Part shown: piece by piece, positions 10,847-14,934 of the stretch
Layout of the letters: the number at the start of each line of letters is the position of its first letter
Numbering within the stretch: position 1 is the first letter of the stretch
Source: Gammaproteobacteria bacterium
GTDB lineage: Bacteria > Pseudomonadota > Gammaproteobacteria > Steroidobacterales > Foliamicaceae
Length of the DNA stretch: 64,000 nt
Assembly: GCA_009838035.1 (NCBI GenBank)
Contig: VXSK01000004.1
Span: forward strand, 1 to 64,000
Direction: 5' to 3'
Notes under the pieces: model-generated
Databases searched by the model: none
What the model was told of the DNA's origin: nothing
Seen by the model: the letters and a program-made list of their open reading frames with translations, nothing else
Position numbers and translations under genes: made by a program

Positions 10847-13021
10847 ATGAAGTCCACCCCTGAAATCAGACTGACCCGCCGGTCTTTTGTCGCGGCCGGG
10901 AGTTCGCTCGCGCTCGCCGTGTATCTGCCGCAAGGGCGGTCCAGCGAAGCGGAAGGATTTCGTCCCAGTGCCTGGATCGGGATTGGTCCCGGCGGCGATG
11001 TCTCGTTTGTATGTGACCGCACGGACATGGGGCAGGGCAGCCCCTGGGCGCTGGCCCGCATCGTCGCCGAAGAGCTGGAGGCGCCCTGGGAGCGCGTATC
11101 CGTTGCGCCCATGCCCGACAACCCCGCCGGCTGGCCGCGATCCATGGGCACCGGCGGCAGCACGGCGGTCAGCGGTTCCTTCGACCTGCTCCGCAGGACG
11201 GCGGCCTCGGCCCGCGAGATGCTGCGGCTGGCCGCGGCGGTGGAGTGGGGCATCAGTCCGTCCGAATGCGTCTGCCGCGACGGCGTCGTGACCAATCGCG
11301 CCACGGGCGCGCGGCTGGACTACGGTGCGCTGACCGCACTTGCGGCGCAACTGGATCCGCCCCAGGACCCTCCTCTCAAGGACGTGTCCGACTACCGCCT
11401 TGTCGGCCGGTCGTTCCCGCGCGCGGATGTCCCTCCAAAGACCCTCGGCGCCCAGACCTATGCCATCGACGTGCGTCTGCCCCGGCAGCTGACCGGCCTG
11501 ATCGCCCGTTCACCCTGGCCCGGTTCCGTCGAACGGCGGGCGGTCTATGATGCGGAGGCCGTCTTGAGCCTCCCCGGCGTGACGGACGTCTTCGAGATTC
11601 CGGGCGACGACCACAGGCCGCCCGGCGTAGTGGTTCTGGCCGGCGACTTCTGGCGGGCGCAGCAGGCCCGCGCCGCGCTGGACGTGCGCTGGGTTCCGCC
11701 CGAGGGAGGCGAGCCAGCGGATGCGCCTGACCCTGCCGCGGATTTTCGCCGCCGCCTGGTTACGGCCCTGTACGAACCCGGTTCCGCGGCGCGCAGCGAA
11801 GGCAATGTTCGCGAAGCCATGCAGGAGCCCGGGCTGCGCCGGGTCTTGGCGCAGTACGAGGTTCCGTTTCTTCATCACGCCACCATGGAACCGATGAACT
11901 GCACGGCGGATGTCCGCGTGAATCGCTGCGAGGTGTGGGCGCCGACCCAGACCCAGACCCGGGCCCAGCAGATTGCGGCGAAGCTCACCGGCCTGCCCAT
12001 CGAAGCCGTGCACATCTACACGCCGGCGCTCGGTGGAGGCTTCGGGCGCCGGCTGGAGAACGATTACGTCGCCGAAGCCGTGCTTGCCTCCCGGTACGCC
12101 GGCCGGCCCGTCAAGATCATGTGGACACGCGAGGACGACATGCAGCATGGCTACTTCCGTCCCCCCGCGATCAGCCTCATGCACGGGGCGCTGGACGAAA
12201 GCGGCCAACTGCGGGCCTGGCGGCAGCACATCGCCTCGCCTTCGTTGCTCCGGCAGATGCGCGGAATGGAGCCGGAAGTTGATACCGCCGCCGTCCAGGG
12301 CGCCGCCAACCTTCCCTATCGGGTGCCGAACCTCGAGGTCAGCCATGTCGAAGTGCGCTCGCCGGTCAATCTGGGTTTCTGGCGGTCCGTGGGCCACTCC
12401 TACAACTGTTTCTTCGTGGAGACCTTCATCGACGAGCTGGCCCACGCGGCCGGCCGCGATCCGTTCGCGTTCCGGATGTCGCTGCTGCCCGATGAGTCGC
12501 GGATGGCGGCCGTGCTCTCGCGGGCTGCGCAGGAAGCGGGCTGGGGCAAGCCTCCCGGCCCGAACAGCGGTCTCGGCATTGCCTGCACCCACAGTTTCGG
12601 CAGCCTTGCGGCCCAGGTGGCCCGGGTTTCGGTTGACCGTGGCCGGCTGCGCGTCGAGCGCATCGACTGCGCCGTGGACTGCGGGCTGGCTGTCGACCCC
12701 GCCACGCTGGAGTCGCAGATCAGCGGGGGGATCCTATTCGCCCTGACCGCGGCCCTGCACGGCAGGATCCGCCTCGGCCGGGACGGCGCGGTGGAACGGA
12801 ATTTCGACAGCTACAGGATGCTGCTCATGATCGACACGCCCGATATACGGGTGCATATCGTCAACAGCGGCGCCCCGATCGGGGGCATAGGCGAAGTGGG
12901 CGTGCCGCCTGCCGCACCAGCCGTGGGCAACGCAATTTTCGCGGCGCTGGGCAAACGCCTGCGCACGCTGCCTTTTCAGGTCCCGGTGGCGCGGAACCCC
13001 CGGGTGGAGGAACAGATTTGA
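10847..13021 (+). CDS. Tat-exported molybdopterin hydroxylase large subunit (IorB/XDH family)
   Basis: A 724-residue molybdenum-cofactor subunit of the xanthine dehydrogenase / isoquinoline 1-oxidoreductase beta-subunit family. The ATG at 10847 gives a twin-arginine signal (LTRRSFVAAGSSLALAV). Cofactor motifs are intact: DRTDMGQGSPWALARIVAEEL, TGGSTAVSGS, ALGGGFGRRLENDY, and the C-terminal GIGEVGVPPAAPAVGNAI carrying the catalytic Glu. These enzymes hydroxylate N-heterocycles or aldehydes and pass electrons to a small [2Fe-2S] subunit. That subunit and the usual cytochrome partner are not adjacent, so they must be encoded elsewhere or be absent. The stop overlaps the next start (TGATG), tying it to the FG-GAP lipoprotein that follows. 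The substrate cannot be inferred. Confidence 0.87.
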   Translation: MKSTPEIRLTRRSFVAAGSSLALAVYLPQGRSSEAEGFRPSAWIGIGPGGDVSFVCDRTDMGQGSPWALARIVAEELEAPWERVSVAPMPDNPAGWPRSMGTGGSTAVSGSFDLLRRTAASAREMLRLAAAVEWGISPSECVCRDGVVTNRATGARLDYGALTALAAQLDPPQDPPLKDVSDYRLVGRSFPRADVPPKTLGAQTYAIDVRLPRQLTGLIARSPWPGSVERRAVYDAEAVLSLPGVTDVFEIPGDDHRPPGVVVLAGDFWRAQQARAALDVRWVPPEGGEPADAPDPAADFRRRLVTALYEPGSAARSEGNVREAMQEPGLRRVLAQYEVPFLHHATMEPMNCTADVRVNRCEVWAPTQTQTRAQQIAAKLTGLPIEAVHIYTPALGGGFGRRLENDYVAEAVLASRYAGRPVKIMWTREDDMQHGYFRPPAISLMHGALDESGQLRAWRQHIASPSLLRQMRGMEPEVDTAAVQGAANLPYRVPNLEVSHVEVRSPVNLGFWRSVGHSYNCFFVETFIDELAHAAGRDPFAFRMSLLPDESRMAAVLSRAAQEAGWGKPPGPNSGLGIACTHSFGSLAAQVARVSVDRGRLRVERIDCAVDCGLAVDPATLESQISGGILFALTAALHGRIRLGRDGAVERNFDSYRMLLMIDTPDIRVHIVNSGAPIGGIGEVGVPPAAPAVGNAIFAALGKRLRTLPFQVPVARNPRVEEQI

Positions 13022-14934
13022 TGAAACGGTGTTTTTGCGTCGGCTCCATTGCGGTAGCCGCGGGAGTGCTGCTTGGTGGATGCCAGGCGGGCGACGAGTC
13101 CGGGCAGACGGGCGACGAATCCGGCCAGACGAGCGTTCCGATTCGGTTTGCCGAGGAGGCCGCGGAGCGCGGGATCGCCGACATCGGGCTGGACGGCGCG
13201 GGCGTGGCGTTCAACGACTACGACGGCGACGGCGATGCCGATATCTACATCACCAACAACGACAGCGGAACACTCGGCCACGAATTCCGCAATCGATTGT
13301 GGGAAAACGATGGAAACGGCTATTTCACGGACGTAGCGGAAGCCCGCGGCGCAACCAACGAAGGTGGCCTGGGGCGCGGGATCACTTTCGGTGACTACGA
13401 CCTCGACGGCGACGACGACCTGGTTGTGGCGAACATGCAATCGGGCGCCCGCGGCGGCTACGATCCCCCGGTAACCCTTTACCGCAACCGGATGGCCGAG
13501 ACCGGCGTGCCGGACTTCGAGGACGTTACGGGCGACGTCTGGCTTGTGCGCGAGGGCGTGTTCGAGGACGAGTCCAACGAAGGCATTACCGCCACGTCCG
13601 GAGGCGTGGGCTTCGGCGACTATGACGGCGACGGCTGGCTGGACCTGCTGTGGCGTTCCGCCGACTATGACGTCGACCAGGCGCTGTTCCGCAATAGCCG
13701 CGGCGGCGAGTTCGAGGACGTGACCGAGGCTGCCGGCGTGTTGCTGCTCAAGGACATGAAGGAAGCCAACAGCCAGGGGTCGCCCGGCTGGTTCGATTTT
13801 GATTTGGACGGAGACCTCGACCTTCTCTCGCCCCAGGAAGGCGGACCCAACGCGCTCTATCTGAATCAGGGTGACGGCAAGTTTGCGAACATCACAACTT
13901 CAAGGCAGCCGCCTGCCGGCTGGGCGTTCCTGAATCCCGGCAACGCGAACGGCGTCTGCCTGGGCGACGTGGACAACGACGGCGACATCGACGCCTATCT
14001 GCCCAACGCCGACCAGGCCAACCGCCTGATTCGCAACGACTACGCCGAGACAGGCGCGGCCGGCTTTACGGACATCACCCTGGCCTCAGGCGCAGGGGAC
14101 CCGGGCGGCGCCCGGGGCTGCACGATGGGCGATTACGACAACGACGGCTGGCTGGACATCTATGTGAGCAACGGCGGACTGTCCAACGTTCTGATCAACG
14201 ACATCATTGAAGACCTGCCGTACTTCGTTCAGTTCTACATCGCGTTCGAGCCCGCCGACAACGCGCTGCTGCGCAACAACGGCGACGGAACCTTCACCGA
14301 CGTGACAGCCGGTTCAGGCGCCGAGGGCTACAGCATCGGCGCCGGCGTGGCCAGCGGCGACGTGAACGGCGACGGCTTCACCGACATCGTCGGCACCGCG
14401 CGGACCTTCTACAACCGCGGCGAGATGCTGTCGGAGCCGCAGCGCAATTTCCTGTGGCTGAACCAGGGCAACGACAACCACTGGATCAAGGTGCGTCCGG
14501 AAGGCCAGCGGCTGAACGCCCGGATACGGGTGGTTTCCGGCGACCTGGTTCAATGGCGCGAGATCTTCTCGTCCACTGGCTACAACTCCGTGGACGAACC
14601 CGCGCCTGTCTTCGGCCTGGGTGCCCGGGACAGCGTGGGCCGCGTTGACGTCTGCTGGGCCGACGGCCGTACGCAGACGGTCCTGGACCCGCCTGTGGAT
14701 CAGGAATTGGTCGTTACCGCGGCTGCCCTGGAACCGCCCGGCGCCAGCAGCCAGACCAGCAGCGCCCAGACGAGCAGCACCGCCTGCGCGCCGGCCATGA
14801 GCACGAACGGCGCCCAGGGCGTGGACGCGCTGAACAGTGCGCCTCCAACGCCTGCCGCCAGGATGATGCCTATGGAACCGAACATGCTCAGCAAGCCGAT
14901 CACCGCGCCCCGCTCGCGTGGCGGCGCCTCCTGA
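13021..14934 (+). CDS. FG-GAP/VCBS-repeat lipoprotein with UnbV-like C-terminus
   Basis: A 637-residue exported protein. The N-terminus has a lipoprotein signal (GVLLGGCQAG), so it is probably anchored in a membrane facing the periplasm or surface. The body is a beta-propeller of calcium-binding FG-GAP/VCBS repeats, seen as recurring DYDGDGDADIYITN, DYDLDGDDDLVVAN, DYDGDGWLDLLW, DFDLDGDLDLLSP and DYDNDGWLDIYVSN. Near the end, NHWIKVRPEGQRLNARIRV to VDVCWADGRTQTVLD is an ASPIC/UnbV domain. The coding frame then runs 235 nt into the opposite-strand MFS gene, so the last 77 residues are antisense to it and probably not a folded domain. It is translationally coupled to the molybdenum hydroxylase; a joint role is inferred only from that. 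Confidence 0.85.
   Translation: MKRCFCVGSIAVAAGVLLGGCQAGDESGQTGDESGQTSVPIRFAEEAAERGIADIGLDGAGVAFNDYDGDGDADIYITNNDSGTLGHEFRNRLWENDGNGYFTDVAEARGATNEGGLGRGITFGDYDLDGDDDLVVANMQSGARGGYDPPVTLYRNRMAETGVPDFEDVTGDVWLVREGVFEDESNEGITATSGGVGFGDYDGDGWLDLLWRSADYDVDQALFRNSRGGEFEDVTEAAGVLLLKDMKEANSQGSPGWFDFDLDGDLDLLSPQEGGPNALYLNQGDGKFANITTSRQPPAGWAFLNPGNANGVCLGDVDNDGDIDAYLPNADQANRLIRNDYAETGAAGFTDITLASGAGDPGGARGCTMGDYDNDGWLDIYVSNGGLSNVLINDIIEDLPYFVQFYIAFEPADNALLRNNGDGTFTDVTAGSGAEGYSIGAGVASGDVNGDGFTDIVGTARTFYNRGEMLSEPQRNFLWLNQGNDNHWIKVRPEGQRLNARIRVVSGDLVQWREIFSSTGYNSVDEPAPVFGLGARDSVGRVDVCWADGRTQTVLDPPVDQELVVTAAALEPPGASSQTSSAQTSSTACAPAMSTNGAQGVDALNSAPPTPAARMMPMEPNMLSKPITAPRSRGGAS

Follow-up and report, generated by a model that had tools for sequence, protein, structure and literature searches.

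An IorAB-like molybdenum enzyme, the deoxyribose dehydrogenase of Pseudomonas simiae, is presented in passages of PMC6365646 together with a cytochrome c and two transporters of the major facilitator superfamily (MFS), and its action is suspected to be periplasmic. Poribacteria genomes carry several copies of the UnbV domain (PMC3909097), and the domain also figures in a paralogue analysis of Solibacter (PMC3174227); the relevant passages of both sources assign it no function. No report joining an UnbV/FG-GAP propeller with a molybdopterin enzyme was found in the open-licence literature, most subscription journals lying outside this scope. Such a combination is encoded at positions 10847-14934 of a stretch of 64,000 nucleotides from a Gammaproteobacteria bacterium (assembly GCA_009838035.1, contig VXSK01000004.1, positions 1 to 64,000), the whole of which is referred to below as the window. 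In this locus, the gene of a molybdenum hydroxylase large subunit is directly followed by that of a CRTAC1-type beta-propeller lipoprotein. The analysis confirmed that the pair is real, conserved within one genus and composed of known families, and did not show it to be a working unit. The favoured explanation, to which a probability of roughly one half is given, is that a solo enzyme of the IorB type borrows a small subunit and a cytochrome encoded elsewhere, the propeller being co-expressed with it as an accessory or anchor protein.

Both genes lie on the forward strand. The first starts with the ATG at 10847, ends with the TGA at 13019-13021 and encodes a large subunit of 724 amino acids; the second starts with the ATG at 13021-13023 and its stop codon ends at 14934, the junction being a TGATG in which stop and start codons overlap. 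The initial annotation had described this overlap, the export of both proteins and the lack of an adjacent [2Fe-2S] small subunit or cytochrome, and these three observations were borne out. The enzyme carries a twin-arginine signal (TRRSF) and the propeller a lipobox (LGGC) whose Cys21 is encoded at 13081-13083. A tblastn search of the 64 kb window (E 1e-5) gave no hit for a [2Fe-2S] small subunit and, since no Fer2_2 gene was found there, the pair was not classed as an IorAB system. Scanning of the nearest neighbours, which encode an N-formylglutamate amidohydrolase, an MFS transporter and ATP-binding cassette (ABC) transporters, revealed no c-type cytochrome gene beside the pair.

The large subunit (10847-13021) was assigned to the IorB/aldehyde dehydrogenase large-subunit type on the basis of its domains, its sequence match to a solved structure, a conserved glutamate and its ratio of non-synonymous to synonymous substitution rates (dN/dS). 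It displays the Pfam domains MoCoBD_1 (3.4e-35) and MoCoBD_2 (8.4e-28), both above the Pfam cut-offs, and its best Protein Data Bank match is 8gy3_C, an aldehyde dehydrogenase large subunit, aligned over residues 7-712 with an E-value of 1.4e-75. The presumed catalytic Glu683 (codon 12893-12895) was located by alignment to 8gy3_C in a G-E motif which we take to be the site of the catalytic glutamate. This residue is kept in all 8 members of the pair family, in all 21 rows with a nearby small subunit and in all 14 solo rows of the tree described below. Across these 21 rows, 96 alignment columns reach a conservation of 90% or more; in 89 of them, one or more of the 8 pair members still carry the prevailing residue. 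Purifying selection is apparent from dN/dS values of 0.14-0.26 (8 pairwise comparisons among 7 genomes, G002 left out). Judged from its sequence, the large subunit looks like an active member of the IorB/membrane-bound aldehyde dehydrogenase branch of the xanthine oxidase family. Pseudogene status was ruled out by the conserved Glu683 and by dN/dS values of 0.09-0.26 across both genes.

The propeller (13021-14934) was identified by Pfam, by its motifs, by structure prediction and by dN/dS. It matches FG-GAP_3 (4e-40), UnbV_ASPIC (1.6e-14) and FG-GAP (7.7e-13), and contains seven D.[DN].DG motifs, at residues 66, 125, 200, 259, 316, 371 and 447, from which calcium binding is predicted; no CxxC or CxxCH motif was seen in it. 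An AlphaFold model of residues 1-570, built from 20 aligned sequences, reached a mean per-residue confidence (pLDDT) of 84.5 and a predicted template modelling score of 0.87. This model aligns with murine CRTAC1 (9etn_A) over 461 residues with a Z-score of 41.5, a root-mean-square deviation of 2.4 and 23% identity, the next entry scoring 32; the Foldseek E-value of the CRTAC1 match is 1.2e-32. The mature domain extends to about residue 565, and over residues 1-565 dN/dS amounts to 0.09-0.14 in the same set of comparisons. From about residue 566 onward the reading frame (14700-14934) runs antisense to the 3' end of a convergent MFS gene. The resulting overlap measures 235 nt in the window genome (G000) and in G001, G005, G006 and G007, whereas G004 shows one of 157 nt. 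In G003, which has no MFS match downstream of the pair, such an overlap is impossible. This C-terminal tail is probably a non-functional read-through. The lipobox is present in 7 of 8 genus members, G003 lacking it, and the strict lipobox pattern is matched by only 5 of 34 propeller homologues, a count in which two rows have no testable N-terminus, the near-lipoboxes of L112 and L114 are missed and the match of L105 probably precedes the true start.

The two genes are adjacent in all eight genus genomes whose contigs hold both (G000-G007), the enzyme gene of G008 being truncated by the contig end. The question raised by the initial annotation, whether the pairing recurs in other genomes, therefore received a divided answer: it is not unique to this genome, and none of the loci examined outside the genus shows it. 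The TGATG junction is present in five of the eight members (G000, G001, G002, G005 and G007) and replaced by GTGA in G003 and TTGA in G006, given the start codons chosen there, so that the overlap is retained in seven of eight; in G004 the genes are separated by a gap of 17 nt. In G002 a stop codon closes the propeller frame after 62 codons, but the region of homology extends beyond it. The same tRNA-Ser precedes the large subunit by 23-26 nt in seven of the eight genomes and is more distant in G003. The 5' genes are common to the genus and the 3' side alone varies, as an MFS match is missing in G003, and G004 has just one MFS gene and no ABC genes. The idea, taken from G003, that the pair had been kept through relocation was dropped, the 5' synteny being shared and the difference confined to the 3' side. 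Synonymous divergence (dS) is discordant between enzyme and propeller, at 0.50 and 0.14 for G005-G001 and at 0.24 and 0.44 for G000-G006. Since dS differs strongly between the adjacent genes in these four genomes, homologous recombination within the genus, between or inside the two genes, is suggested. In the tree of large subunits the eight pair rows form one clade (100/100). The genus members named in the contig scan of propeller loci are metagenome-assembled Gammaproteobacteria, and several of their isolate names presumably stem from sponge studies.

Enzyme loci outside the genus were collected from a class sample of 369 genomes, one best match per genome being kept with flanks of 1.5 kb. 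An adjacent small subunit was present in 28 of the 29 loci retained and the solo state looks derived on this account; a propeller gene stood beside the enzyme in none of the 29. Adjacency in this sample and among 58 relatives was judged by eye, using the coordinates of the matches listed, and 'solo' designates a large subunit without small-subunit match in the stretch examined, which covers at most 1.5-3 kb per side and less at contig ends. In this sense solo large subunits were observed in 12 genomes outside the genus (G009, G010, G018, G022, G024, G031, G035, G037, G039, G046, G048 and G056), each of which contains at least one Fer2_2 gene. Conversely, 16 of the 58 relatives have no Fer2_2 gene; 13 of them gave no match to a large subunit either, G025 and G052 gave just a fragment at a contig edge, and G057 gave just a weak match. 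Across the order, IorB-type large subunits repeatedly lack an adjacent small subunit, and their co-occurrence with Fer2_2 fits the borrowing of a small subunit by solo enzymes; one small subunit may be shared among several large subunits. The tree comprises 44 chosen rows and is deliberately rich in solo loci, so that its composition (8 pair rows, 14 solo, 21 with a nearby small subunit, which is about 2.5 kb away in three cases, and 1 unassigned) is no measure of frequency; L031, a locus of G039 that is solo in 3.3 kb, was omitted. The solo label requires 6 changes on this tree, and support is weak for where the pair clade stands with respect to the solo rows of G048 and G009. As a separate observation, at 1605-5380 of L188 (G031:C7) the gene of a solo IorB-type large subunit lies directly 5' of a PF01593 flavin amine oxidase gene, a member of the Pfam family to which the gene after the propeller belongs in L108.

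The genome of the window encodes two further large subunits, an Ior-type on contig C29 (38% identity) and a xanthine dehydrogenase type on C2 (26% over residues 317-550). The two Fer2_2 genes found lie beside these, far from the window. An IorA-like small subunit, whose search elsewhere in the genome had been recommended, was thus found on C29 with its own large subunit. The C29 module is made of the large subunit on the reverse strand and, on the forward strand, the [2Fe-2S] subunit and a lipoprotein cytochrome c with the motif CRACH, the signals, haem motif and cytochrome identity having been read by eye from the sequence. Its large subunit contains a twin arginine, its small subunit has no evident export signal, and no propeller match was found in the 18 kb stretch around it. 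A recent duplication of the C29 enzyme as the origin of the window enzyme was ruled out by the 38% identity and the distant placement in the tree. An XdhC-type chaperone gene (XdhC_CoxI) is present on C11. In the assembly, which is estimated to be 95.86% complete, the search detected no small subunit of the window enzyme's own. Among the nine genus genomes, IorA-type Fer2_2 genes were found in seven.

According to the favoured explanation, the Tat-exported large subunit would assemble with a [2Fe-2S] small subunit whose gene lies elsewhere; the IorA-like protein of C29 is the leading candidate. That protein, devoid of a visible export signal, would be carried out by the large subunit that bears the Tat signal, and electrons would then pass to the C29 lipoprotein cytochrome c and on to the respiratory chain. 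The substrate, probably an aldehyde, an aldose or an N-heterocycle, would be oxidised in the periplasm. The propeller, lipid-anchored in most genus members and translated in coupling with the enzyme, would serve as anchor, scaffold or ligand binder and would have been recruited beside the enzyme in the genus ancestor. Several findings weigh against this scheme. Nothing shows the C29 small subunit binding the window enzyme, whose identity with the C29 large subunit is just 38%, and 7 of the 96 conserved columns are altered in every pair member. An IorA-type Fer2_2 gene is missing in G003, where the C29-type large subunit lies at a contig end, and in G008, and kinship confounds the remaining genomes. 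The genome-level association between solo subunits and Fer2_2 is partly trivial because large subunits usually bring their own small subunit. Among the matches listed within the order, the three best outside the genus (G010:C354, G048:C11 and G009:C47) are also solo, and the loss of the small subunit may therefore predate the genus and be independent of the propeller. The discordance in dS implies that the two genes do not always travel together, and an adjacency limited to one genus, with shared 5' genes and a variable 3' side, may be plain synteny.

This last point leads to the possibility, tentative in our estimate, that the two genes are chance neighbours, that is, two unrelated exported proteins co-transcribed behind tRNA-Ser since the genus ancestor and held together by local synteny. 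The shared 5' context and the discordant dS agree with it, as do the results of a contig scan covering the best 80 of 124 propeller loci, several of which end at contig edges and among which the window's own record is possibly absent. A molybdenum enzyme gene was found near the propeller in six of these 80 loci, all from the same genus (L086-L091), and in none of the other 74; the 29 enzyme loci outside the genus likewise lack the pairing. Neither a large nor a small subunit of a molybdenum enzyme was present in the flanks of 29 propeller loci of the class sample other than the genus' own, and IorB-type subunits and CRTAC1-type propellers were found apart in many genomes. The only co-location noticed outside the genus, among the matches listed, is on contig 180 of G287 (22112-32342), where a large-subunit match and weak FG-GAP matches are about 7 kb apart. 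Coincidence is opposed by the start/stop overlap, kept in seven of eight genus members (with the starts chosen for G003 and G006) despite the changed 3' neighbours of G003 and G004. At the other extreme, the propeller would be a true subunit of a new periplasmic molybdenum hydroxylase, docking the enzyme to the outer membrane and replacing IorA, with another electron carrier. This is unlikely in our view. The coupled start and stop, the export of both proteins and the genus-wide adjacency speak for it, and passages of PMC12758564 describe homologues of hydrazine synthase, in two clades, with a CRTAC1-annotated FG-GAP gene between the subunit genes. A further argument is provided by the 36 closest propeller loci (L086-L121), where surroundings other than a molybdenum enzyme gene prevail and in 10 of which the next gene falls into one BLAST cluster; in this count the propeller frame of L090 was mis-picked and L088 is truncated. 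The cluster gene is a flavin amine oxidase by Pfam in the member tested (L108), and twin arginines were present at the N-termini read (L068-L071, L108 and L112). However, the propeller shows no CxxC or CxxCH motif, the C29 module does without a propeller in its 18 kb, the loci examined beyond the genus show no adjacency, the two genes diverge discordantly and lipidation is not conserved. The proposal of the initial annotation that enzyme and propeller form a working unit was not sustained, an intact Ior-type module without propeller being present on C29.

It is very doubtful that the propeller is itself an enzyme, or a binder of sugars or lactones, acting on the substrate or product of the molybdenum enzyme in a periplasmic oxidation route. 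Elsewhere, members of the subfamily are encoded near arylesterase/SMP-30-type, MFS, short-chain dehydrogenase/reductase (SDR) and aldehyde dehydrogenase genes, and Foldseek ranks aldos-2-ulose dehydratase second among proteins. The latter match is nevertheless only 10-12% identical and, with a Z-score of 29.1, stands among other propellers (LGI1 31-32, WD40 25-28); no catalytic residues were identified, and the MFS protein of L108 is closer to another MFS protein of the genome than to that of the pair. In a bolder version of the docking proposal, which we consider quite improbable, the hydroxylase of this genus would function without its usual [2Fe-2S] subunit, and a calcium-bound propeller, occupying or reshaping the Fe-S docking face, would tether it to the outer membrane. 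CRTAC1-type propellers would then have a general role in docking exported redox enzymes, namely molybdoenzymes in this genus and, in other settings, flavin amine oxidases and hydrazine-synthase-like enzymes. Compared with these alternatives, the borrowing of a small subunit by a solo enzyme accompanied by an accessory propeller is the explanation retained.

The propeller loci outside the genus display further regularities. In Gammaproteobacteria, a run of genes in the order UbiA, propeller, flavin amine oxidase, SDR, unknown, arylesterase-type, MFS and DUF1838 was observed in L108-L110, L112, L114-L118 and L121; it is complete where the contig allows, and was Pfam-tested in L108, where the MFS gene was assigned by BLAST cluster. 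Genes resembling those of sugar-nucleotide synthesis accompany the propeller and the cluster gene in several Rhodospirillaceae loci. The candidacy of the MFS transporter as a conserved propeller partner was weakened, the L108 protein being closer to C29:88215 (46%) than to the MFS protein of the pair (34%). A flavin amine oxidase as absent third partner was rejected as well: the L068 query gave eight strong matches and one marginal match, none of them on the contig of the window. These eight strong homologues (G000: C6, C17, C22, C28 and C30), with E-values of 2.7e-68 or better, represent an expansion of the family.

On the 5' side, the pair is preceded by a tRNA-Ser (gct) detected by ARAGORN at 10733-10823 on the forward strand, by a csrA-like frame at about 10517-10714, named by eye only, and by an N-formylglutamate-amidohydrolase-like gene. 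As the large subunit starts 23 nt after the end of the tRNA (window 10733-10847), little space is left for a promoter of its own, and its mRNA may arise by transcription continuing from the tRNA gene and be released by tRNA 3' processing. Within 10400-15100, the sole promoter-like match upstream of the large subunit is at 10417-10446. On the 3' side, the convergent transporter gene at 14700-16031 (reverse strand, Pfam MFS_1) is considered a neighbour, and its membership in the unit is not claimed. It belongs to two MFS paralogues, about 73% identical and on the same strand, which flank an opposite-strand pair of CydDC-like ABC exporter genes (14700-21229), both scoring below the NCBIfam cut-offs. 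At this site G004 has one MFS gene and no ABC match, as if the repeats had recombined or an older state had been kept.

If the two proteins do cooperate, a testable role becomes available for bacterial CRTAC1/UnbV propellers; if they do not, recurrent solo IorB-type subunits, maybe sharing a small subunit, matter for gene annotation. The window enzyme resembles IorB and 8gy3_C in its MoCoBD domains, in the alignment of residues 7-712 and in the motif of the catalytic glutamate, and it has a twin-arginine signal; it differs from them in having no [2Fe-2S] or cytochrome c gene nearby and an overlapping propeller lipoprotein gene instead. Going by the passages of PMC6365646, the P. simiae enzyme also has an IorB-like molybdenum subunit with a Tat-type signal, but its iorA, iorB and cytochrome c genes form one cluster, whereas the window large subunit stands alone; the P. 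simiae route includes two MFS genes, and the window pair also has an MFS gene beside it. With CRTAC1 and other ASPIC/UnbV proteins (9etn), the window propeller shares the FG-GAP repeats, the C-terminal UnbV domain, the seven calcium-type motifs and a whole-length fold match, and it differs in being bacterial, lipidated in most of the genus and coupled to a molybdoenzyme gene. The hydrazine-synthase-like loci, as they appear in the passages of PMC12758564, also place an FG-GAP gene among the genes of redox-complex subunit homologues, but they concern haem enzymes of other lineages and not a molybdenum hydroxylase. These likenesses to PMC6365646 and PMC12758564 are to be taken as analogies rather than tests. 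The parts of the locus are of known kinds, and their pairing was found in a single genus among the loci examined.

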